From Arenibacter echinorum (GTDB lineage: Bacteria; Bacteroidota; Bacteroidia; Flavobacteriales; Flavobacteriaceae), in NCBI RefSeq assembly GCF_003259375.1, contig NZ_QLLN01000001.1:411360-475359 (forward strand): a stretch of DNA of 64,000 nucleotides, read 5' to 3'. Position 1 is the stretch's first letter. Each line of letters begins with the position of its first letter. Positions 9,031-26,031 of the stretch are shown here, piece by piece. The notes beneath the pieces are model-generated. The model was not told the origin of the DNA. It ran no database searches and saw nothing but the letters and a program-made list of their open reading frames with translations. A program made the position numbers and the translations under genes.

Positions 9031-9513
9031 ATGAAAACGGTAATATTGGTAAGGCACGGAAAATCGTCTTGGGAATATAATGTTTCGGACAGGGATAGGC
9101 CCCTAATGGAAAGGGGTATAAAGGATGTGAATAAGGTGGCAAAGGAATTCTTATCCAGTTCAATCCACATTGACGCTGCTTATTCCAGTCCCGCCAATAG
9201 GGCTTTGCACACGGCTATGATTTTTTTGAGAACTATAAATTTTCCACATACACAGTTTGAAGTGTCCAATGAACTTTATGACTTTTCAGGTGAGGACGTA
9301 TACCGATTTTTAAAAGGATTGAACAATGATCAGGATACGGTTATTATTTTTGGACACAACGAAGCCTTTACACATATTGCCAATTCTCTAGGAAACATGT
9401 ATATTGACAATGTTCCCACTAGTGGGTTGGTACAATTAAAATTTGACACAAACGAATGGAGTGCCCTAACAAAAGGAATTACGGTACAGACACTTTTCCC
9501 AAAACAGTTATAA
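9031..9513 (+). CDS. SixA-like phosphohistidine phosphatase
   Basis: Histidine-phosphatase-superfamily protein of 160 residues. The catalytic RHG motif is at the N-terminus (ILVRHGKSSWE), with the DRPLMERG loop, SSPANRALHTA and the second catalytic His in IFGHNEAF. This short single-domain form with a KSSW segment is typical of SixA-like proteins, which remove phosphate from phosphohistidine in signalling or PTS proteins. The start at 9031 was chosen because the RHG motif normally lies within the first 10 residues; the open frame reaches back to 8926 but the extra residues look non-homologous. It is 2 nt from ppk1, so a link to phosphate or polyphosphate metabolism is suggested by context only. 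Confidence 0.88.
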   Translation: MKTVILVRHGKSSWEYNVSDRDRPLMERGIKDVNKVAKEFLSSSIHIDAAYSSPANRALHTAMIFLRTINFPHTQFEVSNELYDFSGEDVYRFLKGLNNDQDTVIIFGHNEAFTHIANSLGNMYIDNVPTSGLVQLKFDTNEWSALTKGITVQTLFPKQL

Positions 9514-9515
9514 GA

Positions 9516-11594: not shown

Positions 11595-11608
11595 AAAAAA
11601 CAGCTACT

Positions 11609-12496
11609 TTGAAAGTACGGAAATATGCCGCCATAGATATTGGCTCCAACGCTATACGCTTACTTACCCATAACGTTATTGAAGAAGAGGGGAAAGATAC
11701 CCTCTTTAAAAAAAGTGCCTTGGTCCGATTGCCGATCAGGTTAGGGGAGGACGTGTTTAAAAACGGGACTATTTCCAAGCGCAATGAAGAGCGTTTGTTG
11801 AATGCCATGAAGGCGTTTCAACTTTTGATGGAAGTACATGGGGTGGAAAAATATATGGCCTGTGCTACTTCGGCCATGAGGGAGGCAGATAATGGGCAGT
11901 TGGTTATTGATCGCATCTTAGAGGCTTCCGGGGTAAAGATTCAATTAATAGACGGGGAAAAGGAGGCTTCCATTATAGCCTCTACAGACCTTAAGAATTT
12001 GATAAGGAAGGATGAGACTTATCTTTATATAGATGTGGGCGGCGGGAGTACCGAGTTTACGGTCTTTTCCGAAGGGAAAATAAAAATTTCGGAATCCTTT
12101 AAGATTGGAACCGTTCGGCTCCTGAATGGTATGGTAGATGATTCCCTTTGGAACGAACTGGAACTCTGGCTGAAGAAACACGTTAAGGGACTGCCCAATT
12201 TATCGATCATTGGTTCGGGGGGAAACATAAATAAACTGCATAAAATGTCCGGCCGTAAGGAAGGGGAGTCCCTGTCCTATATATGGCTAAGGGCACAATA
12301 TCATTTTCTGTCGAGCCTGACTTTTGAGGAAAGGGTCTCCGAATTGGGATTAAATCCGGATAGGGCAGATGTAATTATTCCAGCTACACAAATTTTTGTC
12401 TCTTCTGCCAAGTGGATCGGAGCCAAAAAAATTCATGTTCCCAAAATAGGGTTATCGGATGGGATTATAAAAACCCTGTACTACGCTAAAGAATAA
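11609..12496 (+). CDS. Ppx/GppA family phosphatase (exopolyphosphatase), TTG start
   Basis: ASKHA-fold phosphatase, 295 residues: the short form without the extra C-terminal HD-like domain of E. coli Ppx. Nucleotide-binding loops are seen in YAAIDIGSNAIRLL (N-terminus) and YIDVGGGSTEFTVF, with SIIGSGGNINKL further on. Members cleave terminal phosphate from polyphosphate or hydrolyse pppGpp; which substrate applies cannot be told from sequence. The start must be TTG at 11609: it lies 14 nt after the ppk1 stop and no ATG or GTG occurs before the conserved DIGSN loop. A weak non-ATG start would lower its yield relative to ppk1. Convergent with miaE. Confidence 0.9.
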   Translation: MKVRKYAAIDIGSNAIRLLTHNVIEEEGKDTLFKKSALVRLPIRLGEDVFKNGTISKRNEERLLNAMKAFQLLMEVHGVEKYMACATSAMREADNGQLVIDRILEASGVKIQLIDGEKEASIIASTDLKNLIRKDETYLYIDVGGGSTEFTVFSEGKIKISESFKIGTVRLLNGMVDDSLWNELELWLKKHVKGLPNLSIIGSGGNINKLHKMSGRKEGESLSYIWLRAQYHFLSSLTFEERVSELGLNPDRADVIIPATQIFVSSAKWIGAKKIHVPKIGLSDGIIKTLYYAKE

Positions 12497-12549: not shown

Positions 12550-13131
12550 TTAGCCGTGGACGGTTTCAGAATTGCCCAGATCTTTCATGATGGATGCTTC
12601 GTAAGACAGTAGTTCGTCCCATTTCTTGTCCACTTCCTTGCGATCTCCATACTTACGGGCAAAGTTTAGAAACATGGTGTAATGCCCCGCCTCACTGATC
12701 ATGAGTTTATGGTAAAAATCTGCCAGCTCCTTATCCTGCAATTGCTCGGATAGCAACCTAAAGCGTTCACAACTGCGGGCTTCAATTAATGCGGCATATA
12801 ACAAGCGATGTACCAATTGGGTGGTTCTGCTGCCTCCTTTTGGGAAAAACTTTAGTAAGGCAACAACATAGTCATCCTTTCTGTCCCTTCCCAATGATTT
12901 TCCGCGGGCCAATATGCGGTCGTGAACCATTTTGAAATGTCCCATTTCCTCTCTTGAGAGCGCTATCATTTCTTGGGTTAGTTCAGTGTATTCTGGAAAG
13001 CTCACAATCAAGGAAATAGCTGTGCTTGCCGCCTTTTGCTCACAATAGGCGTGATCTGTTAATATTTCATCGATATTTTTCTCAACAATGTTGACCCATC
13101 TGGGGTCTGTGGGTAACTTTAAACCTAACAT
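12550..13131 (-). CDS. miaE: tRNA-(2-methylthio-N6-isopentenyl-A37) hydroxylase MiaE
   Basis: Non-haem diiron monooxygenase that hydroxylates the isopentenyl group of ms2i6A37 in tRNA. The 193 residues match the family. Likely iron ligands are visible as a ferritin-like set: E31, E62 and H65 (SREEMGH), E117 (LIEARSCERF), E147 and H150 (SEAGH). All are present. The protein starts MLGLKLPTDPRWV, a typical MiaE N-terminus. It requires MiaA and MiaB products, neither of which is in this window. It is monocistronic on the minus strand, with a candidate -7 box 18 nt upstream. Confidence 0.94.
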   Translation of the reverse strand: MLGLKLPTDPRWVNIVEKNIDEILTDHAYCEQKAASTAISLIVSFPEYTELTQEMIALSREEMGHFKMVHDRILARGKSLGRDRKDDYVVALLKFFPKGGSRTTQLVHRLLYAALIEARSCERFRLLSEQLQDKELADFYHKLMISEAGHYTMFLNFARKYGDRKEVDKKWDELLSYEASIMKDLGNSETVHG

Positions 13132-13148
13132 AGCACAATTTTCTGTTT

Positions 13149-13156
13149 CAAAAATA
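13149..13156 (-). promoter_or_regulatory. Candidate -7 element for miaE
   Basis: On the minus strand TATTTTTG matches TAnnTTTG, 18 nt upstream of the miaE ATG. No -33 box was recognised. Confidence 0.45.
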
Positions 13157-13308
13157 GAAAGAATACCATAAACCGCGGTAATTAATGCTGATATAGTTTT
13201 ATATTTAAGCCTTCTTTGTAAGCATGGTGCAATTATTTGAATTACTCATCGGCTTACTATATGCATTATTAAAATTTATGGTTTAACACGGGATAAATAT
13301 ATTGTAAT

Positions 13309-14166
13309 ATGTTATTTGAAAATATTGGTGCCAAGCTTCTGAAAATTTTAGAGGATAATGTGGACAACGTAAATAAGCAGTGGCTGTTGTCAAAAATCGA
13401 AGGCATTGTGGAATCAGAGTCCACAAAGGATTTATATCTGACCTATAGCTTGGTACCCACAAAAATTAGATCGGAAAAGGAACTGTCGCTTTTATTGGAT
13501 GATAAGGAATTAAAGGCTTACCTGGAAATTCAACACGCCAACCTACAGCAGATAGGTAGAATTTATTTGCTTTACAAGGTGTTGGAGGCCAAGGAGGAAT
13601 TTTTTAAGGCCAAGGTAGCCAATATTATAGAAGTCGCGGATAAGAGTGAACTGGAAACCTTCCTTAAATTTTTGATATTGTTGCCTCATCCCGAAAACTA
13701 TAAAGTACAGGCTGTTGAGGCTCTAAGGACCAATATCTCTAACGTTTTTGATGCAATAGCGTTAAACAATCCTTATCCTGCGCTTTATTTTAATGAACAG
13801 CAATGGAACCAAATGTACCTGAAGGCGGCATTTATGCAGCAAAATTTAAATGAAATTGTACAGGTAGAAAAAAGAGGTAACAAGGAACTTGCAAGAATTA
13901 TTTCGGATTACGCCCACGAACGTTGGGCAGCATCAAGGGAAATAGATCCCTGTTTTTGGAGGCCAGTGAGTAATTTCATGAACGAAAAACTCTTAAAGGA
14001 CATGAAGCGACTATTTTCAAGTGAAAATATTGTGGAGCGAAAAGCAGCCGCTCTTTGTTGTTACCACTCCAGTTCAAGCGAAGCGAAGGCATTGTTGGAA
14101 GGATTTCCTGAACTAGTAAAAGGAATTGAAAATGGAGGTATTACCTGGGGGAATATCAAGGAATAA
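13309..14166 (+). CDS. eboA: EboA-domain protein
   Basis: 285-residue soluble, helical protein without known motif, recognised as EboA by its pattern (LYLTYSLVPTKIRSEKEL, ARIISDYAHERWAASREIDP, FWRPVSNF, ERKAAALCC) and by the eboB-F genes downstream. EboA family proteins are part of the Ebo cluster; in cyanobacteria that cluster is needed to move the scytonemin monomer to the periplasm, and a homologous cluster (EDB) in Pseudomonas repels nematodes. No enzymatic activity is established for EboA. Here it is separated from eboB-F by a terminator and a 3.35-kb gene, so it is probably transcribed separately. Acts presumably in the cytoplasm. Confidence 0.88.
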   Translation: MLFENIGAKLLKILEDNVDNVNKQWLLSKIEGIVESESTKDLYLTYSLVPTKIRSEKELSLLLDDKELKAYLEIQHANLQQIGRIYLLYKVLEAKEEFFKAKVANIIEVADKSELETFLKFLILLPHPENYKVQAVEALRTNISNVFDAIALNNPYPALYFNEQQWNQMYLKAAFMQQNLNEIVQVEKRGNKELARIISDYAHERWAASREIDPCFWRPVSNFMNEKLLKDMKRLFSSENIVERKAAALCCYHSSSSEAKALLEGFPELVKGIENGGITWGNIKE

Positions 14167-14187
14167 CCCCAAATTATAAAAAACAAT

Positions 14188-14237
14188 AAGCGGTTGAAAA
14201 GTATTGATTTTGTACTTTTTTGAACCGCTTTTTTTAT
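14188..14237 (+). terminator. Terminator behind eboA
   Basis: AAGCGGTT (14188-14195) pairs with AACCGCTT (14223-14230), with an inner AAAAGTA/TACTTTT helix and a small mismatch between, followed by a T-run. It separates eboA from the rest of the Ebo region. Confidence 0.82.
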
Positions 14238-14679
14238 TTGGCTTCCATGATTTATAACTTACCAGCAAATAATGACCTGAATTTGATTTATTGGGAATCA
14301 AGATCTCCAACCAGTTTTATTTCTTCATGTTCCTATTGATACAAAAGATTCTCTTTTTTGGGTAGAGCTGTAATCGTGGAAAAAATACCCGCTCTGGCAG
14401 ATATAATATCACTAAAATATTTTTCATTTTAGGTACGGATCTTTGAACTCGTTTAGATTTGTTGGTGTATGGTCGGATTTTTTCACAGGTTTATATAAAA
14501 TTCTTTCCAAATGATTTAAATTGCTGCATTATTGTATGGATATTTCATTTTTGGGCAAAAAAAGTATTTATTAAAGCATAATTTGTTTTTAGATGAGGTG
14601 TTTTAAGGATTCAAAAGTTAGGTTGAATCATCAATTGGGACATCATAGTTAATGGATTATATTAAATTAATTAGTTTTT
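14238..14679. other. Long AT-rich leader/intergenic region before the mosaic lipoprotein gene
   Basis: About 440 nt with no supported gene. One -7-like box, TAGATTTG at 14454-14461, points toward 14680 but lacks a clear -33 partner and would imply a leader of over 200 nt. No riboswitch or structured RNA was recognised. Confidence 0.4.
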
Positions 14680-17600
14680 ATGGATAATATTTTAAAATGG
14701 GTAATGGGACTTATCCTTGTTTGTTTACTAGGTTCTTGTACTTCCAAGGAAACCAAATTATTGGTGTTTAGTAAAACGGAAGGATTTAGGCACGGTTCCA
14801 TTGAGAAAGGTGTGGAGGCAATGAAGAGCTTGGGAGAACAAAATGGCTTTATGGTGGATACGACCGATGATGCAACCTATTTTACTGAGGAAATATTAAA
14901 GGAGTATTCGGCTGTTATATTTTTAAACACTACCGGGGATATTTTAAATGAGGTGCAACAGGCTGATTTTGAAAGATATATTCAAGCAGGTGGGGGATTT
15001 TTGGGAATTCATGCGGCTACGGATGCGGAATATGGTTGGCCTTGGTACAATAAATTAGTGGGCGCCTATTTTAAGGGGCATCCCAAAATTCAAGAAGCAA
15101 GGTTGAATATAATTGATAAAAACCACCCTGCTACCAAATCAATGTCCGATACATGGATGAAGACGGACGAGTGGTATAATTTCAGGGATATCAACCCAGA
15201 AATAAAGGTATTGATAGAAATAGACGAGACCAGTTATGAGGGAGGAGAAAATGGGGAGCATCATCCTATTTCCTGGTATCATGAGTATGACGGAGGAAGG
15301 TCCTTTTATACGGAAATGGGACATACCGATGCCACCTTTGAAAATCCTGATTTTTTAAAGCATGTCTTGGGCGGTATTACCTATGCAATTGGCGATACTG
15401 CTTTGGATTACAGCAAGGCAAAGACAGAAAGGATTCCTGAGGAAAACAGGTATGTTCGTAAGGTCCTCGATTTTAACCTAAACGAACCTATGGAACTGGA
15501 AGAACTGCCCGGTAGGGGAATTTTGTTCGTGGAACGCAGGGGGGCTCTAAAACTTTATGATTTTAAGGAAGAAAAAACAAAGCAAATAGCCCAGCTTAAT
15601 TTGTTTTATGGCAATGAGGATGGGTTATTGGGTATAGCAGTAGATCCGAATTATAAGAATAACAATTGGATCTATTTGTTTTATTCTGCACCAGGTGAAA
15701 TATCCGAACAACGCATTTCAAGATTTACCTTGGTTGGTGATTCCTTGGACTTAGCATCTGAAAAAAATCTATTGACTATTCCCACATTGCGCAAATGTTG
15801 CCATAGTGGAGGGGCCTTGGAATTTGGTCCCGACGGCAATTTATTTATTGGTTTGGGAGACAACACCAACCCCTTCGAATCTTCCGGTTTTGCACCAATA
15901 GACGAAAGGGAGGGTAGGGCATTATGGGATGCCCAAAAATCAGCGGCCAATGCCAATGACCTTAGAGGAAAGATTTTGAGAATTAAACCCGAGGACGACG
16001 GAACCTATTCCATTCCAGAGGGAAATCTGTTCCCAGTAGGTACAGCTAAGACTAGACCTGAAATATATGTAATGGGTAGCCGTAACCCTTTTAGGTTTTC
16101 CGTAGATAGTGAAACTGGGTATGTATATTGGGGAGATGTTGGTCCTGATGCCGGAAAGGGCGATCCCAATAGGGGACCCCATGGTATGGGCGAATTTGAC
16201 CAGGCTAGAACAGCTGGGAATTGGGGATGGCCCTATACACGCGGTAATAATCAGGCTTATAACGATTATAATTTTACTACCGAGACTCCGGGTGAAAAAT
16301 TTGACCCTGCAAAGTTGATCAACGATTCTCCCAACAATACAGGTATTAAAGAACTTCCTCCTGCTCAGGAGTCATTGATATGGTTTTCCTATAGTGCTTC
16401 GGAAGAATTTCCTTGGTTGGGTTCTGGAGGGGTCAATCCAATGGCTGGGCCAGTTTATCATTCTTCCAACTATCCCAATGCTACTAATAAATTTCCGGAA
16501 TATTTTGAGGATAAGCTTTTATTGTATGAATGGATGCGGGATTGGATCTATGTGGTAACACTGGATGAAGATCACAATTATGTAAAGGCAGATCCTTTTA
16601 TGCCCGGTAACGAATTTTCACATCCAATGGATATGCTTTTTGCCTCTGATGGCAACCTTTATATCCTTGAATATGGGCAAAAATGGAATTCCCAAAACAT
16701 GGATGCTCGCTTAAATAGGATTAGTTATGTTAGTGGTAATCGCAAACCAGTTTCCCGAATTACCTCAGATAAAATGGTTGGCGCACAACCCTTTACTGTA
16801 AATTTTTCCGGTGGTAGCTCTGAAGATTTTGATAAGGACAAATTGCAATACGAATGGTATTTTAATTCGGATGAGGTTCAGGATACATCCTTGGAGCCAA
16901 GCTTTACTTTCAATGAACCAGGGAATTATACGGTGCGTTTAAAGGTAACCGATGAAGCTGGAAATACGGATATATCCACCCAGAAGATTTTGGTGGGCAA
17001 TGATATTCCCGAATTAAAGATTGAATTGGATACCAAGAACAGAACTTACTGGAATGGGCATAAAGTAGGCTATAAGGTTGTCGTAACCGATAAACAGGAT
17101 GGCAGTACCCTCGCAGGTACCATTGATCCCAAGGATGTAAAAGTCACCTTTGATTATATTCCCGAAGGTGAGGATATGGTCAAGGCTACTATTGGGCATC
17201 AACAGAATACGATACCGGAAGGCAAGTTGATTATGGACGATACGGACTGTAAGGCCTGTCATGCCATAAATGTCAAGGTAAATGGGCCGTCGTACGAGGA
17301 AATAGCAGCGCGCTATTCGGCCAAGGACAAAAACTATTTGATAGATAAGATCATTAAGGGAGGCTCCGGAGTTTGGGGAGAAAGTATGATGTCTGCACAC
17401 CCTCAACTTAAGGTTTCAGAAGTGGATAAAATAGTAGATTATATTCTTTCTTTAAATACCGAAATTGGGAAAGATGAAAATCTATTGGCTATACAGGGAG
17501 AAGTTGGTTTTAACGCCCATCAGGCAAAAAATAGTCAAGGAAAGTATGTTTTAATGGCTTCGTACACGGACAAGGGAAGTAAAGAGCAGCCGGAATCATC

Positions 17601-18030
17601 CCTTTCTGTTAGAGATCAAATTATTTTTAAATTTCCAAAGTATGAAGGCGCTAATGCAGATGAAAAAAGTGGGGGATTGAGTAATTGGGAGGTGGAAGGA
17701 GACAAGGTTATTGGCTCCATTAAAAATGATTCCTATTTAAAATTCAACGACATTGGCTTGGAGGGCCTAAAAAATATAGAGTTGTTGATGTATTTTGGTG
17801 CCGACTATCCGTACGAGGGCAAAGTGGAAATTAGGGAGAATAGTCCTAGCGGTACGCTAATCGGAGAAAGCTCCCTGAAGTATTTTAACAAAGAAAAGGG
17901 AGCAAAGAAGAACTATCTTATCCCGATAAAACCTACCAAGGATTTTGATGCCCTGTGCCTTGTTTTTAAAGGTATGGGAGACAAGGAGCAAATAATAGCC
18001 AATTTTAACGCTATGATATTGAAATATTAA
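14680..18030 (+). CDS. Mosaic lipoprotein: ThuA + PQQ-type sugar dehydrogenase + PKD + cytochrome c + CBM-like
   Basis: 1116 residues. N-terminal lipoprotein signal (LILVCLLGSC, Cys at residue 20), so membrane-anchored in periplasm or outer membrane. Domains in order: ThuA-like glutamine-amidotransferase fold (about 25-245; FRHGSIEKGV, IHAATDAEYGWPWY), glucose/sorbosone dehydrogenase beta-propeller (about 258-685; CCHSGGALEFGPDGNLFIGL), PKD (about 688-773), a haem c domain with C857-K-A-C860-H861, and a C-terminal CBM6-like region (about 940-1116). In Bacteroidota and Planctomycetes this mosaic is associated with extracytoplasmic oxidation of carbohydrates, electrons passing from the dehydrogenase to its own haem. 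The substrate cannot be told. It sits between eboA and eboB; whether it works with Ebo is only positional inference. No damage seen. Confidence 0.88.
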   Translation: MDNILKWVMGLILVCLLGSCTSKETKLLVFSKTEGFRHGSIEKGVEAMKSLGEQNGFMVDTTDDATYFTEEILKEYSAVIFLNTTGDILNEVQQADFERYIQAGGGFLGIHAATDAEYGWPWYNKLVGAYFKGHPKIQEARLNIIDKNHPATKSMSDTWMKTDEWYNFRDINPEIKVLIEIDETSYEGGENGEHHPISWYHEYDGGRSFYTEMGHTDATFENPDFLKHVLGGITYAIGDTALDYSKAKTERIPEENRYVRKVLDFNLNEPMELEELPGRGILFVERRGALKLYDFKEEKTKQIAQLNLFYGNEDGLLGIAVDPNYKNNNWIYLFYSAPGEISEQRISRFTLVGDSLDLASEKNLLTIPTLRKCCHSGGALEFGPDGNLFIGLGDNTNPFESSGFAPIDEREGRALWDAQKSAANANDLRGKILRIKPEDDGTYSIPEGNLFPVGTAKTRPEIYVMGSRNPFRFSVDSETGYVYWGDVGPDAGKGDPNRGPHGMGEFDQARTAGNWGWPYTRGNNQAYNDYNFTTETPGEKFDPAKLINDSPNNTGIKELPPAQESLIWFSYSASEEFPWLGSGGVNPMAGPVYHSSNYPNATNKFPEYFEDKLLLYEWMRDWIYVVTLDEDHNYVKADPFMPGNEFSHPMDMLFASDGNLYILEYGQKWNSQNMDARLNRISYVSGNRKPVSRITSDKMVGAQPFTVNFSGGSSEDFDKDKLQYEWYFNSDEVQDTSLEPSFTFNEPGNYTVRLKVTDEAGNTDISTQKILVGNDIPELKIELDTKNRTYWNGHKVGYKVVVTDKQDGSTLAGTIDPKDVKVTFDYIPEGEDMVKATIGHQQNTIPEGKLIMDDTDCKACHAINVKVNGPSYEEIAARYSAKDKNYLIDKIIKGGSGVWGESMMSAHPQLKVSEVDKIVDYILSLNTEIGKDENLLAIQGEVGFNAHQAKNSQGKYVLMASYTDKGSKEQPESSLSVRDQIIFKFPKYEGANADEKSGGLSNWEVEGDKVIGSIKNDSYLKFNDIGLEGLKNIELLMYFGADYPYEGKVEIRENSPSGTLIGESSLKYFNKEKGAKKNYLIPIKPTKDFDALCLVFKGMGDKEQIIANFNAMILKY

Positions 18031-18275
18031 ACCGGTTTTGGCGCTAAATACAAATAGCACTCTTAAGGATTAAATAAAGTTATTAGTTGCGTTTACTGTT
18101 AAAACACTTTTAAAATGGGCTATTTATAATCGTTGTGACCCATTAATTAATTAACTTTAACGGTTGGAGTCGATTACAAAAATGAATTTTTTGCGATGTT
18201 TTGATCAATTCCTTTATGGGCTCCAAAACATTTTAATTTTAGAGACGTTTATCAATTAAAGTATACAATATTATT

Positions 18276-19184
18276 ATGGAAGAGAAAATGATGATTATAG
18301 ACCCGCATGTACACATGAGCTCTAGGACAACAGATGATTATGAGGCAATGGCAGCCGCGGGTGTAGTGGCCATTATAGAGCCTTCGTTTTGGTTGGGGCA
18401 ACCACGGACCCAAGTAGGTTCTTTTCAAGATTATTATAGCAGCCTTGTGGGTTGGGAGCCTTTTAGGGCAAGTCAATTTGGGATACATCATTATTGCACC
18501 ATAGGATTAAATTCCAAGGAGGCCAATAATGAAGCCTTGGCGGAACAGGTAATTGAATTATTGCCATTGTACGTACATAAGGAAAATGTGGTAGCCATTG
18601 GTGAAATTGGTTATGACGATCAGACCCCTGCAGAAGATAAGTATTTTAGAATGCAGCTGGAGTTGGCCAAAGAACTGAACATTCCGGTACAGATACATAC
18701 CCCGCATAGGGATAAAAAGTCGGGTACCTTAAAAAGTATGGAGGTTTGTTTGGAACATGGTTTGGATCCTGGTATGGTTGTTATTGATCACAACAACGAA
18801 GAAACCGTTAAGGATGTATTGGATCGCGGTTTTTGGGCGGCATTTACGATTTATCCAAAAACCAAAATGGGGAACGAAAGAATGGTAGAGGTAGTAAGAA
18901 ATTTTGGAAGCAATCGAATTATTGTCGATAGTTCTGCGGACTGGGGGGTTAGCGATCCCTTAGCGGTGCCAAAAACGGCTTCCCTGATGTTAAAAAGGGG
19001 CATAGCAAAATCGGATGTGGTTAAAACCTGTTACCAAAATGCATTGGACATTTTTGGGAAAAATGGTAAGATGAAAGAATCCGATTGGTTAAATCCACAA
19101 GGCATCAATCAAACTAAATTATACAACGACAATAGTGTTTTACGAGGGCAGGAGCCTAAGGTTGATGTGGATAAAATAGTATAA
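18276..19184 (+). CDS. eboB: EboB: TatD-family metal-dependent hydrolase
   Basis: 302-residue amidohydrolase-fold protein. Metal-binding motifs: H11-V-H13 (IIDPHVHMSS), GEIGYD mid-protein, QIHTPH, a VVIDHNNEET segment and VDSSADWGVSDP near the end. The arrangement matches TatD-related hydrolases of the Ebo cluster rather than TatD DNases (which show TGLD). The substrate is unknown. The stop and the eboC start overlap (TAATG at 19182-19186), so B to F form one translationally coupled operon. An in-frame alternative start at residue 5 or 6 is possible, but M1 leaves the HxH motif at the same place. No clear promoter was found in the 245 nt upstream. Confidence 0.9.
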   Translation: MEEKMMIIDPHVHMSSRTTDDYEAMAAAGVVAIIEPSFWLGQPRTQVGSFQDYYSSLVGWEPFRASQFGIHHYCTIGLNSKEANNEALAEQVIELLPLYVHKENVVAIGEIGYDDQTPAEDKYFRMQLELAKELNIPVQIHTPHRDKKSGTLKSMEVCLEHGLDPGMVVIDHNNEETVKDVLDRGFWAAFTIYPKTKMGNERMVEVVRNFGSNRIIVDSSADWGVSDPLAVPKTASLMLKRGIAKSDVVKTCYQNALDIFGKNGKMKESDWLNPQGINQTKLYNDNSVLRGQEPKVDVDKIV

Positions 19185-20086
19185 TGAATCCTGTATTGAA
19201 AGGATATTTAAGGCTAGCCAGACCAGCAAATTTACCTACAGCTGCTGCCGATGTTTTGGCAGGTGTGGCTATTGCGGGCGTATTTATGGGTATTTTCCTT
19301 AATACGGATTGGAATACTTCCATGGTTGGGAAAATACTTTTGTTGGTGTTTTCCTCAGTGTTCCTTTATGCTGCCGGTGTGGTTCTCAATGACGTCTTTG
19401 ATCATAAATTGGACAAAACAGAGCGCCCGGAAAGACCCATTCCATCTGGATTGGTTTCTGTGCGATTTGCCGCAATCTTTGGAGGTGTGCTAATGAATTT
19501 AGGGGTACTATTTTCATTTTTGGTAGGCCCAGTAAGTGGAATGGTAGCTATTACTTTAGGACTTTCCATTCTTTTGTACGACGCCTTGGGGAAACACCAT
19601 TCCTTTTTTGGTCCACTTAATATGGGAGTTTGCAGAGGCTTAAATTTGCTTCTAGGGATTACCATTATGGGTGATTTTAGCAATTGGGGGTATTTTATTT
19701 TTCCAGTTTTATATATAGCGGCCATAACCCTGATAAGTAGGGGCGAAGTGCATGGGGACAATAAGAACCATATTATTTTTGCAGGGGGATTGTACAGTAG
19801 TGTGATTTTGGGATTAGTTGTTCTTTTTTCAACTACTGGCCTTAATTTATTGGAGGCCATTCCATTTCTATTACTGTTCGCTTTTTTAATATTTAGGCCT
19901 TTGTTGAGGGCATATGCAGAAAATTCGCCCAAGAACATTAAAAAGGCAGTAATGGCCGGGGTAATATCGATTATTGTTTTGGACGCAACCTTGGCCGTAG
20001 GATTTTCCCATTGGTGGGTAGGGTTGATTATACTGTTGCTATTGCCATTATCTATTTTTTTATCAAAACTGTTCGCAGTTACCTAA
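19184..20086 (+). CDS. eboC: EboC: UbiA-like prenyltransferase
   Basis: 300-residue integral membrane protein with about eight hydrophobic helices. The first Asp-rich motif is NDVFDHKLD (residues 69-77), followed by ERPIPSG, the classical UbiA signature; the second region reads YDALGKHHSFFGPLNMG. UbiA enzymes attach isoprenyl chains to aromatic acceptors, using Mg2+ held by the Asp motifs. In the Ebo cluster the substrate has not been identified. The ATG overlaps the eboB stop by one base and eboD follows 11 nt later. This gene is the strongest hint that the Ebo product is a prenylated or lipid-linked molecule handled at the membrane (inference). Confidence 0.92.
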   Translation: MNPVLKGYLRLARPANLPTAAADVLAGVAIAGVFMGIFLNTDWNTSMVGKILLLVFSSVFLYAAGVVLNDVFDHKLDKTERPERPIPSGLVSVRFAAIFGGVLMNLGVLFSFLVGPVSGMVAITLGLSILLYDALGKHHSFFGPLNMGVCRGLNLLLGITIMGDFSNWGYFIFPVLYIAAITLISRGEVHGDNKNHIIFAGGLYSSVILGLVVLFSTTGLNLLEAIPFLLLFAFLIFRPLLRAYAENSPKNIKKAVMAGVISIIVLDATLAVGFSHWWVGLIILLLLPLSIFLSKLFAVT

Positions 20087-20097
20087 CGTTTTAAAGT

Positions 20098-21279
20098 ATG
20101 TCACATTATAAACCAATAGAACAATCCTTTAAAGTAGCTTATGAGTATAAGCTACATTTTACGGAAAATATTTTTAGTTTGCACAACCCCTTGTTCAAGA
20201 ATATTATTAATGGGTATAACAATAAAGGGCATGTAAAAGTACTTTTTGTAATAGACAGTGGTGTATTGGCCTGCCATCCAAATTTAATGGCGGAAATTAC
20301 TTCCTATTGCACACAAAATAGTTCAGCGATACATCTAATGGAACAATTGGTGATTACTGGAGGGGAACAGTGTAAGAATGATTACCACAATGTGGAGCGG
20401 ATATTGAATGCCGTGAATGATAATCGAATTTGCAGGCATTCTTTTGTAGTGGCCATTGGGGGAGGTGCCATTATAGATATGGTGGGATATGCTGCCGCCA
20501 TAGCCCACAGGGGGGTGAAGCTGATAAGAATTCCTACTACAGTGCTGTCCCAGAACGATTCGGCCGTAGGGGTGAAGAATAGTTTTAATATTTTAGGCAA
20601 AAAGAATTTTCTGGGAACTTTTGCGCCAGCTTATGCCATAATAAACGACAGTAATTTTTTAACCACCTTGGAACAGCGCGATTGGATTTCCGGCATAGCC
20701 GAGGCGGTAAAAGTGGCTTTAATCAAGGATACGGTATTCTTTGATTTTATAGAAGAGAACAGTACACTGCTTCGGGCACGTGATATGGAGTCCATGGAGT
20801 ACTTAATTTATCGTTGTGCAGAGATGCATATGGAGCATATTGCCCTAGGGGGAGATCCCTTTGAAAGCGGTTCTTCCAGACCTTTGGATTTTGGCCATTG
20901 GGCAGCCCATAAATTGGAATACATGACCAATTATCAACTGAGACATGGCGAAGCTGTTGCAATTGGTATGGCCTTGGATTTGGTATATGCCCATTTTATA
21001 GGGTTGATAAGTAAGGAAACGCTGGACCGCATTTTAAAAGTTCTGGAACAAATTGGGTTCGATTTACATATCCCTATTGAAAAAGACAGTGATCTGGATG
21101 ATTTGTTAAACGGCATTCAGGAATTTAGGGAGCATTTGGGAGGGGAACTTACTATTACCTTGATATCCAAAATAGGCAGCAAACACGATGTGCATGAAAT
21201 TGATGTTGCCACCATGGAAAAAGCAATCGTATGGTTAAACGAAATGTACAAACCTAAAGTATCCAATACCACATGTTAA
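20098..21279 (+). CDS. eboD: EboD: 3-dehydroquinate synthase-like sugar phosphate cyclase
   Basis: 393 residues with the sugar phosphate cyclase fold. NAD-binding VVAIGGGAIIDMVGYAA and RIPTTVLSQNDSAVGVKNS are well preserved; GIAEAVKVALIKD and the metal-ligand region RHGEAVAIGMALDL and GHWAAHKLE are seen. These match dehydroquinate synthase chemistry, but the gene belongs to the Ebo lineage, and product (dehydroquinate, valiolone-type cyclitol or other) cannot be assigned. No other shikimate genes are adjacent, which argues against a role in aromatic amino acid synthesis. Its 3' end overlaps eboE by 7 nt. Confidence 0.9.
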   Translation: MSHYKPIEQSFKVAYEYKLHFTENIFSLHNPLFKNIINGYNNKGHVKVLFVIDSGVLACHPNLMAEITSYCTQNSSAIHLMEQLVITGGEQCKNDYHNVERILNAVNDNRICRHSFVVAIGGGAIIDMVGYAAAIAHRGVKLIRIPTTVLSQNDSAVGVKNSFNILGKKNFLGTFAPAYAIINDSNFLTTLEQRDWISGIAEAVKVALIKDTVFFDFIEENSTLLRARDMESMEYLIYRCAEMHMEHIALGGDPFESGSSRPLDFGHWAAHKLEYMTNYQLRHGEAVAIGMALDLVYAHFIGLISKETLDRILKVLEQIGFDLHIPIEKDSDLDDLLNGIQEFREHLGGELTITLISKIGSKHDVHEIDVATMEKAIVWLNEMYKPKVSNTTC

Positions 21280-22466
21280 TACAAAACAAATATCATCTAA
21301 GCTATTGTAGCAATATCCATCCTGGTGAAGATTGGGAGCAGACCTATAATAGCCTAAAAAAATATCTTCCTAAAATAAAGAAGGAAGTTTCTCCGGAATC
21401 CCCTTTTGGTATTGGACTGCGTTTGTCCAATGTGGCAAGTTTGGGGCTAAATGAAGGTAGTAATTTGAAAGATTTCAAGGATTGGTTGGACCAAAATCAA
21501 TTCTATGTTTTTACCATGAACGGTTTCCCTTATGGAAATTTTCACAACGAAAGGGTGAAAGATATGGTACATGCCCCAGATTGGACCACCAAGGAAAGAT
21601 TGGATTATACGAAGCGACTTTTTGATCAATTGGCCTTTTTAGTTCCTGAAGGTATTTCGGGAGGTATTTCTACTTCACCTGTCAGTTATAGGCACTGGCA
21701 TAATTCTAAGGAAGCTTTGGACAAGGCCTTTGCAACCGGAGCCGAAAGTATGGCAGAGATTGTTTTGCAGTTGGTAGAAATTGAAAGGAATACGGGTAAA
21801 TATCTGCATATGGATATAGAACCGGAGCCGGATGGTATGTTAGAGAATAGCGATGAGGTAGTTCACTTTTACGATACCTATTTGATTCCCAGATCAACCC
21901 AAAAATTGATTGATGTTTTGGGGTGTAACAAGGAAACGGCCAAGGATTTAATTCTAAGACATATAACGGTTTGTTATGATGTCTGCCACTTTTCCCTAGC
22001 CTATGAGGAACCGGAACATACTTTGGAAAAATTTAACAAAGCGGGAATAAAGGTTGGTAAAATACAAGTGAGCTCTGCCCTTAAAATACTTTTTAAGGAG
22101 GGTGAAAATGAGGCTATATGGCACTCGCTTAGTCAGTTTAACGAACCCACTTACTTGCATCAGGTCACCGAAAAGATAGGTGACAAAATAGTTACCTATA
22201 AGGATCTGCCCGAAGTTTTGAAGCATCGCTCCGATGCCAAAGAGCTAAGGTCCCATTTTCATGTACCCATTTTTTTGGAAAAGTACGACCATTTATTTTC
22301 TACCCAGGACCAAATACTCAAGGTGTTGGAATATCTAAGGAAAGATCAATTTTCGGATCAATTGGAGATTGAGACCTATACATGGGATGTTTTGCCTAAA
22401 GATCTTAAAACCGAACTGTCCAATTGCATTGTTCGTGAAATTGAATGGTTAAAGAGTAAAATTTAA
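21273..22466 (+). CDS. eboE: EboE: TIM-barrel metabolite-traffic protein (xylose isomerase-like)
   Basis: 397 residues, predicted TIM barrel of the AP-endonuclease/xylose-isomerase type. Candidate metal-binding segments are YLHMDIEPEPDGML, VCYDVCHFSLAYEEP and the C-terminal ETYTWDVLP. Homologues are annotated as metabolite traffic protein EboE; the reaction is unknown. The ATG at 21273 lies within the eboD end (7-nt overlap), which fixes the start and implies coupling. eboF follows 3 nt after the stop. No signal peptide, so cytoplasmic. Confidence 0.9.
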   Translation: MLIQNKYHLSYCSNIHPGEDWEQTYNSLKKYLPKIKKEVSPESPFGIGLRLSNVASLGLNEGSNLKDFKDWLDQNQFYVFTMNGFPYGNFHNERVKDMVHAPDWTTKERLDYTKRLFDQLAFLVPEGISGGISTSPVSYRHWHNSKEALDKAFATGAESMAEIVLQLVEIERNTGKYLHMDIEPEPDGMLENSDEVVHFYDTYLIPRSTQKLIDVLGCNKETAKDLILRHITVCYDVCHFSLAYEEPEHTLEKFNKAGIKVGKIQVSSALKILFKEGENEAIWHSLSQFNEPTYLHQVTEKIGDKIVTYKDLPEVLKHRSDAKELRSHFHVPIFLEKYDHLFSTQDQILKVLEYLRKDQFSDQLEIETYTWDVLPKDLKTELSNCIVREIEWLKSKI

Positions 22467-22469
22467 GGA

Positions 22470-23846
22470 ATGAAGAAAACCGTAGTGCTTAACGTTGTAG
22501 GATTAACACGGGGATTGATAGGGGAGCATACACCCTTTATTAAATCTTTTATGGAGAGAGGAGCTTCGGCAACTATTACACCACAATTGCCTGCAGTGAC
22601 CTGTGCAGTTCAAGCCACCTATTTAACAGGCAAAACGCCATCTGAACATGGTATAGTTGGTAATGGTTGGTATTTTAAGGAGGAGCATGAGGTTAAGTTT
22701 TGGCGTCAATCCAATAGCCTTATCCAATCCGAAAAAATATGGGACAAACTAAAAAAGCTGGACAGTAATTTTAGCTGTTCCAATATGTTCTGGTGGTACA
22801 ATATGTACTCTAATGTAGATTACAGTGTTACTCCCAGACCAAATTATTTGGCAGATGGAAGGAAGATTCCTGATGTGTATTCCTATCCCGCGGAACTAAG
22901 GGACCATTTGCAAAAGGAATTGGGGACATTTCCGCTTTTCCACTTTTGGGGCCCAAAAACATCTATAAAATCCAGTCAATGGATTGCGGATGCCAGTTTA
23001 AAAACGGACGTTTTACATGATCCCACCCTCACCTTGGTCTACCTACCGCATTTAGACTACAATATGCAACGCTACGGGACCGATCTAACCAAAATTTCAG
23101 GCGACCTAAGGGAGATCGATGATGTAGTTAAACAATTGGTGGAATATTATGAGGCTAAATCGGCCCATATTATTCTACTTTCAGAATATGGGATAACCAA
23201 TGTGAATAATCCAATTCATTTGAATAGAAAACTTAGGCAAGAGGGTTACCTCGATATACGGGTAGAAAGGGGACTGGAATTATTGGATGCAGGAGCCAGT
23301 AAGGCATTTGCCGTTGCAGACCATCAGTTGGCCCATGTATATGTAAAGGATAGAGAGGATATAGATAAGGTCAAGGCTATATTAGAAGGCCTTAAGGGGG
23401 TAGAGCAAGTGCTGTCTGGTGACGAAATTAAAGATCTGCAATTGGATCATGAACGTTGTGGAGATTTGGTGGTGATTGCGGATAAGGATTCTTGGTTTAC
23501 CTATTACTTTTGGTTGGATGATAATAAGGCACCTGATTATGCAAGAATGGTAGACATTCACAAAAAACCAGGATACGATCCGGTGGAGATGCTGCTGGAT
23601 CCAAAGGATAAATTCTTGATGCCAAAGGTTATGTGGAAGTTGTTGAAAAAGAAATTGGGTTTCCGAACGGTAATGGATATTATTCCCTTGGACGCCACTT
23701 TGGTTAAAGGGTCACATGGTAGGATGCCCGAGAATTCCAATGATCATCCAATATTGATAACCAATAATAAAAGCGCTACTTTAAAGGATAGTCTATTGGC
23801 AACGGAAGTGTACGGTATTATAGAGAACCATCTTATAAATTCTTAG
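22470..23846 (+). CDS. eboF: EboF: alkaline phosphatase-superfamily (nucleotide pyrophosphatase-like) protein
   Basis: 458 residues. The fold is recognised from HTPFIKSFMERGASATI, LPAVTCAVQATYLTGKTPSE and HGIVGNGWYF, where the Thr/Cys region corresponds to the nucleophile loop of phosphodiesterases. Later DHQLAHVYV and KGSHGRMPEN supply further metal-binding-type His residues. The first metal ligand, usually Asp in a DGL motif, is Val here (NVVGLT, residues 8-13), so activity may differ from classical pyrophosphatases. No signal peptide is visible: the protein starts MKKTVVLNVVG, a beta-strand. It is the last eboB-F gene; a TMEM220-like gene follows after 1 nt. Confidence 0.88.
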   Translation: MKKTVVLNVVGLTRGLIGEHTPFIKSFMERGASATITPQLPAVTCAVQATYLTGKTPSEHGIVGNGWYFKEEHEVKFWRQSNSLIQSEKIWDKLKKLDSNFSCSNMFWWYNMYSNVDYSVTPRPNYLADGRKIPDVYSYPAELRDHLQKELGTFPLFHFWGPKTSIKSSQWIADASLKTDVLHDPTLTLVYLPHLDYNMQRYGTDLTKISGDLREIDDVVKQLVEYYEAKSAHIILLSEYGITNVNNPIHLNRKLRQEGYLDIRVERGLELLDAGASKAFAVADHQLAHVYVKDREDIDKVKAILEGLKGVEQVLSGDEIKDLQLDHERCGDLVVIADKDSWFTYYFWLDDNKAPDYARMVDIHKKPGYDPVEMLLDPKDKFLMPKVMWKLLKKKLGFRTVMDIIPLDATLVKGSHGRMPENSNDHPILITNNKSATLKDSLLATEVYGIIENHLINS

Positions 23847-23847
23847 C

Positions 23848-24207
23848 ATGAGGCTTTTTTCCAAGATATTTTCGGGGGTATTTACCGTATTGTTTGTTTG
23901 GGCGGCATTTGTCCAATACAACGACCCGGATGCCTTTATGTGGTACTTCATTTACGGAATAGCGGCTGGGGCATCATTTTTGTTTTTCCTTGGCAAATTG
24001 AATTTATTGATTCCTGTTGTGCTATCGTTTGCTTATTTAATTGGGGCGTGGATTTTTTGGCCTGATTACTTTGAAGGAGTTTCAATAGATGGGGGAAATA
24101 TAGATAATATAGAACATGCTAGGGAGTCCTTGGGACTCATAATTAATGCTTTGGTAATGTTGTTCTATGTTTGGAGGGTTAAGGTTGGAAGGGCGCTAAA
24201 TATCTAA
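23848..24207 (+). CDS. TMEM220-like small membrane protein
   Basis: 119 residues with about four hydrophobic helices. The N-terminal helix is followed by QYNDPDAFMWYFIYG, a signature of the transmembrane-220 family, whose function is unknown. It starts one base after the eboF stop and is probably the last gene of the Ebo operon. Its end overlaps the convergent dnaX by 12 nt (24196-24207), leaving no room for an intrinsic terminator between them. An Ebo-related role is inferred from position only. Confidence 0.85.
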   Translation: MRLFSKIFSGVFTVLFVWAAFVQYNDPDAFMWYFIYGIAAGASFLFFLGKLNLLIPVVLSFAYLIGAWIFWPDYFEGVSIDGGNIDNIEHARESLGLIINALVMLFYVWRVKVGRALNI

Positions 24208-26031
24208 ATCGAACTCTTTTCGCAAAAGATCTATAGCCGGATTTTTTTCCCTTAATTTCATGTACTTTTCTTCTGGGGTAAATGCAAATTTCTTGGCAGT
24301 GGCCTCGTTTACAGTTATTCGCAGTTGTATAAAGTGGTTGTTGAGCTTTAGTTTTAAATACTCCATAAGGTCGTACTTTTCCCGCTCAATTTCTTTTTTC
24401 ATGGTGCCATTTGGCAATTCTATCCAAATAGTAAAATTATCCGTAAGCTTGGGAACATCCGAATGCAGGTTGGATGCCAAAATTTTACGCCCATCATTAT
24501 CCAAAATTTCAACGAAATCTGCCCAATGTTTTTGCATTTCTGCCTCTATAAAATTGGCTTTGGGAAGGTTGCTTTCATCAATAACATCTTCTTTTTTATT
24601 CAGTTGATGTTCCTTTTTGGCCTTTAAGCTGGAAAGTGAAAGACCAGAAACCCTCCTTTCGGCAGATTTTATGTTGATTTTGGTCCTAGGCGCTGGATTG
24701 GACTCCTGGGCAACATTTACGGATCCACTCCCATCACTTTTGTGTGTCTTTGTGGAAGTATGTAAAGGGGAAGCTTGGTTCTGGGGAGTTTGTTCCTCTA
24801 CAATGACGCTTTCGGTAATCGGTGCTTTGGTAGGGGTGGTTTTTGCCTCCGTTTGGTTGGACTGGATTTCTTTCGCTACAGCGGTAGGACGACTAACCTT
24901 ATAAAAGGAGGCGGGGATAATAAAATCTGGTTTGTTGCGACCATTCCCTAAGGATTCAGACTTTTTTTTTTCTCCATCAAAATCGATAGAGGCTAATTTC
25001 ATTAAGGTCAATTCAACAAGAAGACGTTGATTTTTACTGGACTTGTACTTTATGTCGCAATCGTTGGCCAAATCGATCGCCGATAAAAGAAAGCCACTAG
25101 TTGTGTTTTTGGATTGTTCGCTGTAGTGTTTTTTTGCCTCCTCCCCAACTTCCAGGAGTTCTATAGTGTTCTGATGCTGGCATACCATTAAATCCCTAAA
25201 ATGTGAAGCTAGGCCACTTATAAAATGGTGTCCATCAAACCCCCTGGCCAAGGTTTCATTAAAAAGAATGAGTAAGCCGGGAATATCATGCTTTAGAATA
25301 AGATCCGTAGCAGCGAAATAGGTGTCGTAATCCAGAACGTTTAAATTCTCGGTTACGGCTTTTCTGGTCAGTTTTTTGCCCGAGAAACTCACTACTCTGT
25401 CAAAGATGGAAAGTGCATCGCGCATAGCGCCATCAGCTTTTTGGGCTATGATATGAAGTGCATCGTCTTCAGCTTCTATTTCTTGGTTCTCCGCGATATA
25501 TTTAAGGTATTCGGCAGCATCCTTAACTGTGATGCGCTTAAAATCAAATATCTGGCAGCGAGACAGTATTGTAGGTATAATCTTATGCTTTTCCGTTGTG
25601 GCCAATATAAATATGGCATGTGCGGGTGGTTCCTCCAACGTCTTTAAGAAAGCATTGAAGGCGGCCTGGGACAGCATGTGCACCTCATCAATAATGTATA
25701 CCTTGTATTTTCCAACTTGTGGGGGTATGCGCACTTGACTTGTAAGCTCCCTTATATCATCTACCGAATTGTTAGATGCGGCATCCAGCTCAAAAATATT
25801 AAAGGCAAAGTCCTCATCTTCGTTCGTTCTACCATCTTGATTGATCTGCTTTGCCAGAATACGGGCACAAGTAGTTTTTCCTACCCCTCTGGGACCCGTA
25901 AACAATAGTGCCTGAGCCAGGTGATCATTGTCTATGGCATTAGTAAGGGTATTGGTAATAGCCTGTTGCCCAACAACATCCTTAAATGTTTGGGGCCTGT
26001 ATTTTCTGGCGGATACTATAAAAGGTTCCAA
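24196..26031 (-). CDS. dnaX: DNA polymerase III gamma/tau subunit (clamp loader)
   Basis: Motor subunit of the clamp loader. The 611 residues include Walker A GPRGVGKT (46-53), Walker B region YIIDEVHMLSQAAFNA, sensor/Arg-finger region ILATTEKHKIIPTILSRCQI, the collar domain, a low-complexity linker (about 370-490), and a C-terminal tau-like region. The four-cysteine zinc module that normally follows Walker A is missing: residues 60-78 form a short acidic loop instead (QINQDGRTNEDED). This appears typical for Flavobacteriia and is not damage. No slippery A-run for frameshifting was evident. A -7-like promoter lies about 50 nt upstream. Convergent with the Ebo operon. Confidence 0.95.
   Translation of the reverse strand: MEPFIVSARKYRPQTFKDVVGQQAITNTLTNAIDNDHLAQALLFTGPRGVGKTTCARILAKQINQDGRTNEDEDFAFNIFELDAASNNSVDDIRELTSQVRIPPQVGKYKVYIIDEVHMLSQAAFNAFLKTLEEPPAHAIFILATTEKHKIIPTILSRCQIFDFKRITVKDAAEYLKYIAENQEIEAEDDALHIIAQKADGAMRDALSIFDRVVSFSGKKLTRKAVTENLNVLDYDTYFAATDLILKHDIPGLLILFNETLARGFDGHHFISGLASHFRDLMVCQHQNTIELLEVGEEAKKHYSEQSKNTTSGFLLSAIDLANDCDIKYKSSKNQRLLVELTLMKLASIDFDGEKKKSESLGNGRNKPDFIIPASFYKVSRPTAVAKEIQSNQTEAKTTPTKAPITESVIVEEQTPQNQASPLHTSTKTHKSDGSGSVNVAQESNPAPRTKINIKSAERRVSGLSLSSLKAKKEHQLNKKEDVIDESNLPKANFIEAEMQKHWADFVEILDNDGRKILASNLHSDVPKLTDNFTIWIELPNGTMKKEIEREKYDLMEYLKLKLNNHFIQLRITVNEATAKKFAFTPEEKYMKLREKNPAIDLLRKEFDLDI

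Follow-up and report, generated by a model that had tools for sequence, protein, structure and literature searches.

Cyclase replacement and recurrent gene neighbours of the Ebo cluster in Arenibacter echinorum and other bacteria point to a possible prenylated cyclitol product

Introduction

The Ebo cluster is already published, as an operon that occurs in Bacteroidetes and cyanobacteria and also in the plastids of eustigmatophytes (Yurchenko 2016, PMC5133447). We analysed an Ebo cluster of the flavobacterium Arenibacter echinorum, located in a stretch of 64,000 nucleotides (the window; assembly GCF_003259375.1, contig NZ_QLLN01000001.1, positions 411,360 to 475,359). Window positions 13309-24207 hold, on the plus strand, eboA, an inserted gene for a protein of 1116 amino acids (aa), eboB-eboC-eboD-eboE-eboF in canonical order, and a gene for a TMEM220-family membrane protein.

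The window shares six gene families and the Bacteroidetes-typical ABCDEF order with the operon of Yurchenko 2016. It differs in having TMEM220 behind eboF, and its eboA is parted from eboB by a ThuA-GSDH-cytochrome c gene; the main text of that paper mentions neither "TMEM220" nor "inositol". Homologous eboA, eboB, eboC, eboE and eboF serve export of the scytonemin monomer in cyanobacteria (Klicki 2018, PMC6282210). In the Nostoc punctiforme ebo mutants studied there, the monomer builds up in the cytoplasm. In that system an exported protein of the periplasm, ScyE, acts on the metabolite once it has been transferred. The Ubi-297 prenyltransferases of Maribacter, Zobellia and Algoriphagus are EboC homologues for which 14 aromatic acceptors were assayed, and the specificity section of that study describes no cyclitol (Amiri Moghaddam 2022, PMC9235831). 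The SCO3242-type clusters of Streptomyces plasmids share an EboA domain, a TatD hydrolase homologous to EboB, EboE, an EboF-like phosphodiesterase/phosphatase and a UbiA-type enzyme, the SCO3242-type prenyltransferase; they differ in carrying an inositol-3-phosphate synthase and a second TIM barrel, and they have no EboD. Within the open-licence literature, which cannot serve as proof, we found no publication tying TMEM220 or inositol-phosphate synthase to Ebo.

From the comparisons below we propose that Ebo makes a prenylated cyclitol lipid aiding metabolite transfer to the periplasm, where exported oxidoreductases would act, with TMEM220 as a membrane accessory. In our judgement, this proposal is about equally apt to prove right or wrong.

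Replacement of the cyclase supports a cyclitol step

Cyclase content was compared across distinct loci that carry eboE and at least three of eboA, eboB, eboC (or the SCO3242-type gene) and eboF, with L113 and L218, which are the same contig, counted once. Among these 103 loci, 92 hold EboD only, seven an inositol-phosphate synthase only, none both and four neither; the seven synthase loci comprise six from Actinobacteria and one from Gemmatimonadota. Because one cyclitol-forming enzyme is here replaced by an unrelated one, this pattern is the strongest argument for a cyclitol as an early intermediate, and it supports a predicted cyclitol step in the Ebo pathway.

The neighbourhood also bears on prenylation. 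Type 1 isopentenyl-diphosphate isomerase genes lie near Ebo at five Proteobacterial loci (three above the PRK03759 cut-off, two just below), and a type 2 isomerase, above its own cut-off, lies near Ebo at one locus. EboC homologues, moreover, are reported to farnesylate quinoline acids (PMC9235831). Taken together, the cyclase swap and the isomerase neighbours support a prenylated cyclitol, a product earlier proposed by Yurchenko from EboD and EboC alone (PMC5133447). They also lend independent support to a preliminary description of this DNA, made from the sequence alone, which had inferred a cyclitol or an aromatic prenylated molecule.

Two loci deserve separate mention. One Ebo locus (L054, genome G178) holds eboB, eboC, eboE and eboF, with EboD and eboA not detected locally; an eboD-less Leeuwenhoekiella operon has been reported (PMC5133447). 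In genome G179 (contig C1, 3566071-3567236), eboE is split over two overlapping matches, which suggests a frameshift or sequencing error.

An alternative is that the product of the cluster is not a lipid carrier but a small prenylated molecule that is secreted, for example a repellent, with TMEM220 and GSDH proteins as tailoring or export parts. Such a product would fit the published farnesylation of 8-hydroxyquinoline-2-carboxylic acid (PMC9235831) and the finding that transposon mutants in a Pseudomonas ebo cluster become edible to nematodes (as told in PMC6282210), as well as the ferritin-like PF12902 genes carried by seven loci and one eboE that lies in an apparent aromatic polyketide cluster. 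It agrees less well with N. punctiforme, where all the ebo mutants studied build up one and the same monomer, unmodified, and no lipid-conjugated intermediate was found (PMC6282210); this argues for an ancillary function of Ebo. Moreover, the neighbours of Ebo differ widely between organisms. We consider a secreted product rather unlikely.

The lone eboE just mentioned (L126, 6968-8146) is on a Streptomyces plasmid, amid genes for an acyl carrier protein, FabG, an aromatase/cyclase and flavin-dependent (FAD) monooxygenases. The PF12902 genes, all seven confirmed, lie near Ebo in L109, L121, L130, L176, L182, L183 and L200, which come from Bacteroidota, Proteobacteria and one cyanobacterium. 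The PF12902 domain is also found in indolocarbazole enzymes. Six of these seven loci additionally hold a protein family of about 600-660 aa, three scanned members of which match no Pfam family.

TMEM220 is linked to the Ebo locus

To survey what surrounds Ebo, we clustered 1387 non-Ebo proteins from 133 Ebo loci (132 distinct), made up of 99 named loci, 33 from Bacteroidota and the window. From the multi-phylum genome scan, made with a Gemmatimonadota query, the 80 best loci were used, and frequencies among them should not be read as prevalences. TMEM220 emerged as the commonest non-Ebo neighbour, present at 21 loci of two phyla, in several positions and at a median distance of 13 bp.

Co-occurrence across genomes followed the same direction. 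Among 392 Bacteroidota genomes, 35 carry EboE, 54 carry TMEM220 (one below the family cut-off) and 27 carry both, so that TMEM220 is present in 27 of 35 genomes with EboE and in 27 of 357 without it (P = 7e-20 by Fisher's test, with kinship left uncorrected). Counted by genus, likewise without kinship correction, the figures are 18 of 21 with EboE and 16 of 158 without.

Physical linkage was observed in 10 of the 35 Bacteroidota EboE genomes, where TMEM220 shares the strand of eboE and is no more than a few kb from it: after eboF in six genomes of the window's family (f1), before eboA in three (f3) and directly before eboE in one (f36). The 80 named multi-phylum loci add nine from Proteobacteria, a Salegentibacter and a Hymenobacter, in one Hymenobacter the gene standing beside eboF on the opposite strand. 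Eight of the nine Proteobacterial copies are divergent from eboD at 0-198 bp, and one is convergent with eboB. Because the position varies in this way, TMEM220 is linked to the Ebo locus as a whole and not to eboF specifically. The preliminary description had expected the gene to be conserved next to eboF; this holds in the window's family (all six EboE genomes) and in the Hymenobacter, whereas elsewhere it takes other positions at the locus.

In Proteobacteria we searched 32 of the 35 genomes with Ebo loci (L144, L213 and L217 were left out). TMEM220 is present in 12 of them, always as a single copy, and sits at the Ebo locus in nine of the 12. Within Alphaproteobacteria, it stands beside Ebo in 7 of 19 Ebo genomes, whereas 0 of 191 genomes drawn evenly around one Ebo genome have it at all (Fisher P = 1.6e-8); some of the 191 may carry Ebo, and the 19 were placed in the class provisionally, by record title, with L150, known as Proteobacteria only, left out. 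On an EboE tree of 127 of the 133 loci (four left out, two without a called eboE; the contig of L113 and L218 counts twice here), 105 loci were scored for TMEM220 and 22 had flanks too short. There, TMEM220 linkage requires 12 changes, gains or losses, of which at least eight fall on supported branches.

The predicted structure of the window's TMEM220 protein (predicted local distance difference test, pLDDT, 87.1) has helices at residues 3-25, 29-47, 54-70/72-76 and 86-117, and a fold search with this model returned no match at E<=0.001. Nine residues, N25, D26, D28, W32, Y36, E89, R92, E93 and G96, are invariant across 13 aligned TMEM220 proteins, and this conservation suggests that the protein is more than an anchor and has a putative site for binding or catalysis at or within the membrane. 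Human TMEM220 resides in the Golgi, and its knockdown perturbs both that organelle and secretion (PMC6979480).

Where TMEM220 is found away from Ebo, its adjacent or nearby genes in several genomes encode a TonB receptor, an aldo/keto reductase, a ThuA-GSDH protein or a TIM barrel of the xylose-isomerase type, as judged from one scanned member per neighbour family. Four loci of one Bacteroidota family (L071, L095, L096 and L097) have TMEM220 followed by two conserved genes, whose products measure about 255 and 318 aa; in L071, the locus scanned, neither matched a Pfam family above cut-off.

Predicted exported oxidoreductases recur beside Ebo

The protein encoded between eboA and eboB in the window combines domains matching Pfam ThuA (264.7 bits), GSDH (PF07995, 125.6 bits, cut-off 25), PKD_4 (49.1 bits) and Cytochrom_C (38.9 bits). 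Its GSDH domain falls outside the NCBIfam subfamily of glucose/sorbosone dehydrogenases dependent on pyrroloquinoline quinone (PQQ), scoring 72.4 bits with TIGR03606 against a cut-off of 434.55. The N-terminus, MDNILKWVMGLILVCLLGSC, reads by eye as a lipoprotein signal, and the protein is therefore expected to lie outside the cytoplasm.

This gene is missing from the Ebo locus in four of the six EboE genomes of the window's family. Related genes are nonetheless found at Ebo elsewhere: genome G375 has a co-oriented ThuA-GSDH gene, 65% identical, before eboA with a 40-nt gap, and G323, of another family, has one (44% over the matched part) after eboB, co-oriented with a 60-nt gap. By clustering, GSDH genes lie beside Ebo at 14 of 133 loci (17 genes), all in Proteobacteria; when linkage is called by a profile score of at least 80 bits, the count is 17 of 133 and includes the window, G375 and G323. 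The 32 Proteobacterial genomes (about 155 Mb, summed by hand) contain 76 GSDH matches, some of them split, from which about 0.3 of 32 genomes would be expected to have one within a 21-kb Ebo locus by chance, against 14 observed.

Other Proteobacterial neighbours include MoxG-like cytochromes at eight loci, all eight scoring 95-129 bits and hence below the curated cut-off of 147.8. Another cytochrome c recurs at six loci. VTT/DedA proteins recur at five loci by clustering. ThuA-GSDH proteins occur in 31 of 35 Bacteroidota genomes with EboE and in 39 of 357 others, figures that we do not count towards linkage, since paralogues are caught by this search too and a common lifestyle of the genomes might explain them. 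In genome G414, TMEM220 and a GSDH gene adjoin on a contig other than its Ebo contig. A ScyD/ScyE-family protein and a multicopper oxidase (L120, 1930-3129 and 12092-13570) flank a Streptomyces Ebo-like cluster and are possibly further exported oxidoreductase-like genes near Ebo.

These associations could also be explained if the Ebo product were a redox-active prenylated ring, a quinone-like carrier through which c-type cytochromes and exported dehydrogenases of the GSDH/PQQ type would be connected with the membrane. The recurrence of GSDH and the two kinds of cytochrome beside Proteobacterial Ebo loci, the fusion of GSDH to cytochrome c in the window's inserted gene, and a PQQ dehydrogenase near Ebo in one Salipiger plasmid are in keeping with such a carrier. 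However, the six core genes include no oxidoreductase or aromatising enzyme, the association was seen only in Proteobacteria and a few Bacteroidota, and GSDH proteins are common, with nine domain matches in this genome. We judge a redox carrier improbable.

The core genes group with Ebo proteins

EboC, EboD and EboE each pass their own models (Table 1), the NCBI label of the EboD model being 3-dehydroquinate synthase. EboA passes its domain model and scores 176.5 bits with the stricter subfamily model NF035937, below the cut-off of 320. The same genome contains relatives that might be confused with Ebo genes: a separate AroB-like gene on contig C3 (148.8 bits), one strong TatD (244.9 bits) with two weaker TatD-like matches, and as many as 40 phosphodiesterase-like matches.

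The preliminary description had raised the possibility that the hydrolase, cyclase and phosphatase group with non-Ebo relatives, which our trees do not bear out. The window's EboB falls among 54 Ebo rows, apart from three paralogues of the same genome (Shimodaira-Hasegawa-like approximate likelihood-ratio test, SH-aLRT, 91), and EboF falls among 50 Ebo rows, apart from seven paralogues of the 39 other matches (SH-aLRT 84); exact placement of the paralogues is unsure in both trees because their branches are very long. EboD lies among EboD proteins and distant from the AroB-like gene, a single paralogue that allows no group test. Since EboC, EboD and EboE pass their own models and the EboB, EboD and EboF trees group with Ebo proteins, the window's cluster is, on sequence grounds, a true Ebo cluster as known in Bacteroidetes.

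The AlphaFold model of EboA is helical (mean pLDDT 93.5) and found nothing in the PDB at E<=0.001; designed helical repeats and repeats of the HEAT and Pumilio kinds are among its weak top matches, making a repeat scaffold possible. In an EboE alignment of 14 rows from five phyla, Glu, Asp and His columns are invariant, which fits a predicted active metal enzyme, and the EboE profile matched no PDB sequence below E 0.3. The alignments of EboD cover dehydroquinate synthases only.

A proposed pathway and the evidence against it

The proposed prenylated cyclitol lipid could arise as follows. EboD would form a cyclitol by ring closure of a sugar phosphate, with sedoheptulose 7-phosphate as the probable substrate, and this cyclitol EboE (a metal-dependent TIM barrel), EboB (a metal-dependent hydrolase) and EboF (a phosphoesterase) may tailor. 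EboC would then attach a prenyl chain in the membrane, an activity in print only on aromatic test substrates, and EboA, being helical, may act as a partner protein or as a subunit for binding. This lipid would help a metabolite, aromatic or otherwise, to reach the periplasm, as is in print for the scytonemin monomer, and exported oxidoreductases such as the GSDH protein would act on the metabolite there. TMEM220, which has four helices in the membrane and the invariant polar residues N-D-x-D / E-x-x-R-E, may handle or move the lipid.

Several observations weigh against this proposal. In the published assays, EboC (Ubi-297) used farnesyl diphosphate to prenylate quinoline acids rather than a cyclitol (PMC9235831), so the acceptor may instead be aromatic. 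The role of EboF is left unexplained, because known sugar phosphate cyclases release phosphate (Yurchenko, PMC5133447). Five of 11 actinobacterial loci with eboE hold neither cyclase, and these five come in addition to the 103 loci compared above. As for the neighbours, 8 of 35 Bacteroidota EboE genomes are without TMEM220 and 17 more carry it away from Ebo. TMEM220 stands beside Ebo in none of 15 scored cyanobacterial loci, unlike in the window, and in none of 10 scored actinobacterial loci, while in plasmid records, 47 of them with an EboE relative, neither of two queries detected a relative of TMEM220 at E<=0.001. Wherever an independent pair of loci differs in the linkage of both TMEM220 and GSDH (called at 80 bits or more), the two go together, yet the sign test gives a median P of 0.06. 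Finally, one genome of the window's family (G134; L060, 8884-9240) has TMEM220 and no EboE match.

In that genome, the lone TMEM220 lies between the MiaE-like and dnaX-like genes that flank the whole Ebo cluster in relatives; eboA-F were either lost or gained there. TMEM220 can exist without Ebo.

This arrangement, together with the 27 of 357 Bacteroidota genomes that have TMEM220 and no EboE, would suit a simpler explanation in which TMEM220 and the ThuA-GSDH gene are incidental neighbours and the functional unit is the six-gene core only. The ThuA-GSDH gene, with its own flanks of 513 and 245 nt and its absence from most Ebo loci of the family, could be read in the same way. Chance neighbourhood, however, does not readily account for TMEM220 linkage repeated at differing positions in two phyla, or for the related co-oriented ThuA-GSDH genes at Ebo in G375 and G323, and we find it improbable.

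Our proposal of a prenylated cyclitol lipid can be carried further. TMEM220 may be a true seventh Ebo component, handling the prenylated cyclitol within the membrane; in Bacteroidota and Proteobacteria, it may then belong with Ebo and with exported dehydrogenases of the GSDH/cytochrome c kind to a single pathway that faces the periplasm, with human TMEM220 a distant relative in a comparable lipid role. We offer this extension tentatively and consider it unlikely.

Locus layout and flanking genes

Profile matches and coordinates confirm the six Ebo families in ABCDEF order, as first described for this DNA (Table 1). Spacing is operon-like from eboB to eboF, at -1, 11, -7 and 3 nt for successive pairs, in exact agreement with the earlier statement that these genes overlap or lie within 11 nt; eboA is set apart by one inserted gene, 513 nt after eboA and 245 nt before eboB. 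The small membrane protein noted at the operon end is TMEM220, 1 nt past eboF. The cluster had been called complete, which is right for its six genes, but the ThuA-GSDH gene between eboA and eboB had been overlooked. Within 13050-24400, promoter-like sites (34, against 36.4 in shuffled sequence) and terminator-like sites (10, against 10.3) were no commoner than in shuffles, so the transcription unit is drawn from gene spacing alone.

Table 1. Genes of the Ebo locus and its flanks, in window coordinates
Feature	Position	Strand	Description and profile match
MiaE-like flanking gene	12550-13131	minus	PF06175 141.9 bits; NCBIfam MiaE model 91.1, below cut-off 320
eboA	13309..14166	+	285 aa; all-helical; EboA domain NF035938 151.5 bits (cut-off 50)
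ThuA + GSDH beta-propeller + PKD + cytochrome c putative lipoprotein gene	14680..18030	+	3.35 kb; between eboA and eboB
eboB	18276..19184	+	302 aa; TatD-like metal-dependent hydrolase; Pfam TatD_DNase 73.7 bits (cut-off 27)
eboC	19184..20086	+	300 aa; UbiA-superfamily prenyltransferase; NF035940 (UbiA-like protein EboC) 375.4 bits (cut-off 250)
eboD	20098..21279	+	393 aa; sugar phosphate cyclase; PRK06203 575.1 bits (cut-off 333)
eboE	21273..22466	+	397 aa; xylose-isomerase-like TIM barrel; NF035939 488.2 bits (cut-off 250)
eboF	22470..23846	+	458 aa; alkaline-phosphatase-like phospho(di)esterase; Pfam Phosphodiest 224.5 bits (cut-off 23)
TMEM220-family membrane protein gene	23848..24207	+	119 aa; final gene of run; PF15071 72.5 bits (cut-off 27)
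dnaX-like clamp-loader flanking gene	24196-26031	minus	convergent with TMEM220; PF13177 124.3 bits, PF22608 45.9 bits

Adjoining the cluster, window positions 9456-12496 hold a gene for a 712-aa protein, which we take to be a polyphosphate kinase, followed by a Ppx/GppA phosphatase gene (PF02541, 125.9 bits).

Significance

What Ebo makes has been asked ever since the cluster received its name. The cyclase swap and the isomerase neighbours narrow the candidates and help to shortlist test substrates. The GSDH/cytochrome link suggests where downstream chemistry could be sought, and the link between TMEM220 and Ebo offers an orphan family, which includes a human Golgi protein, a bacterial system for functional testing.

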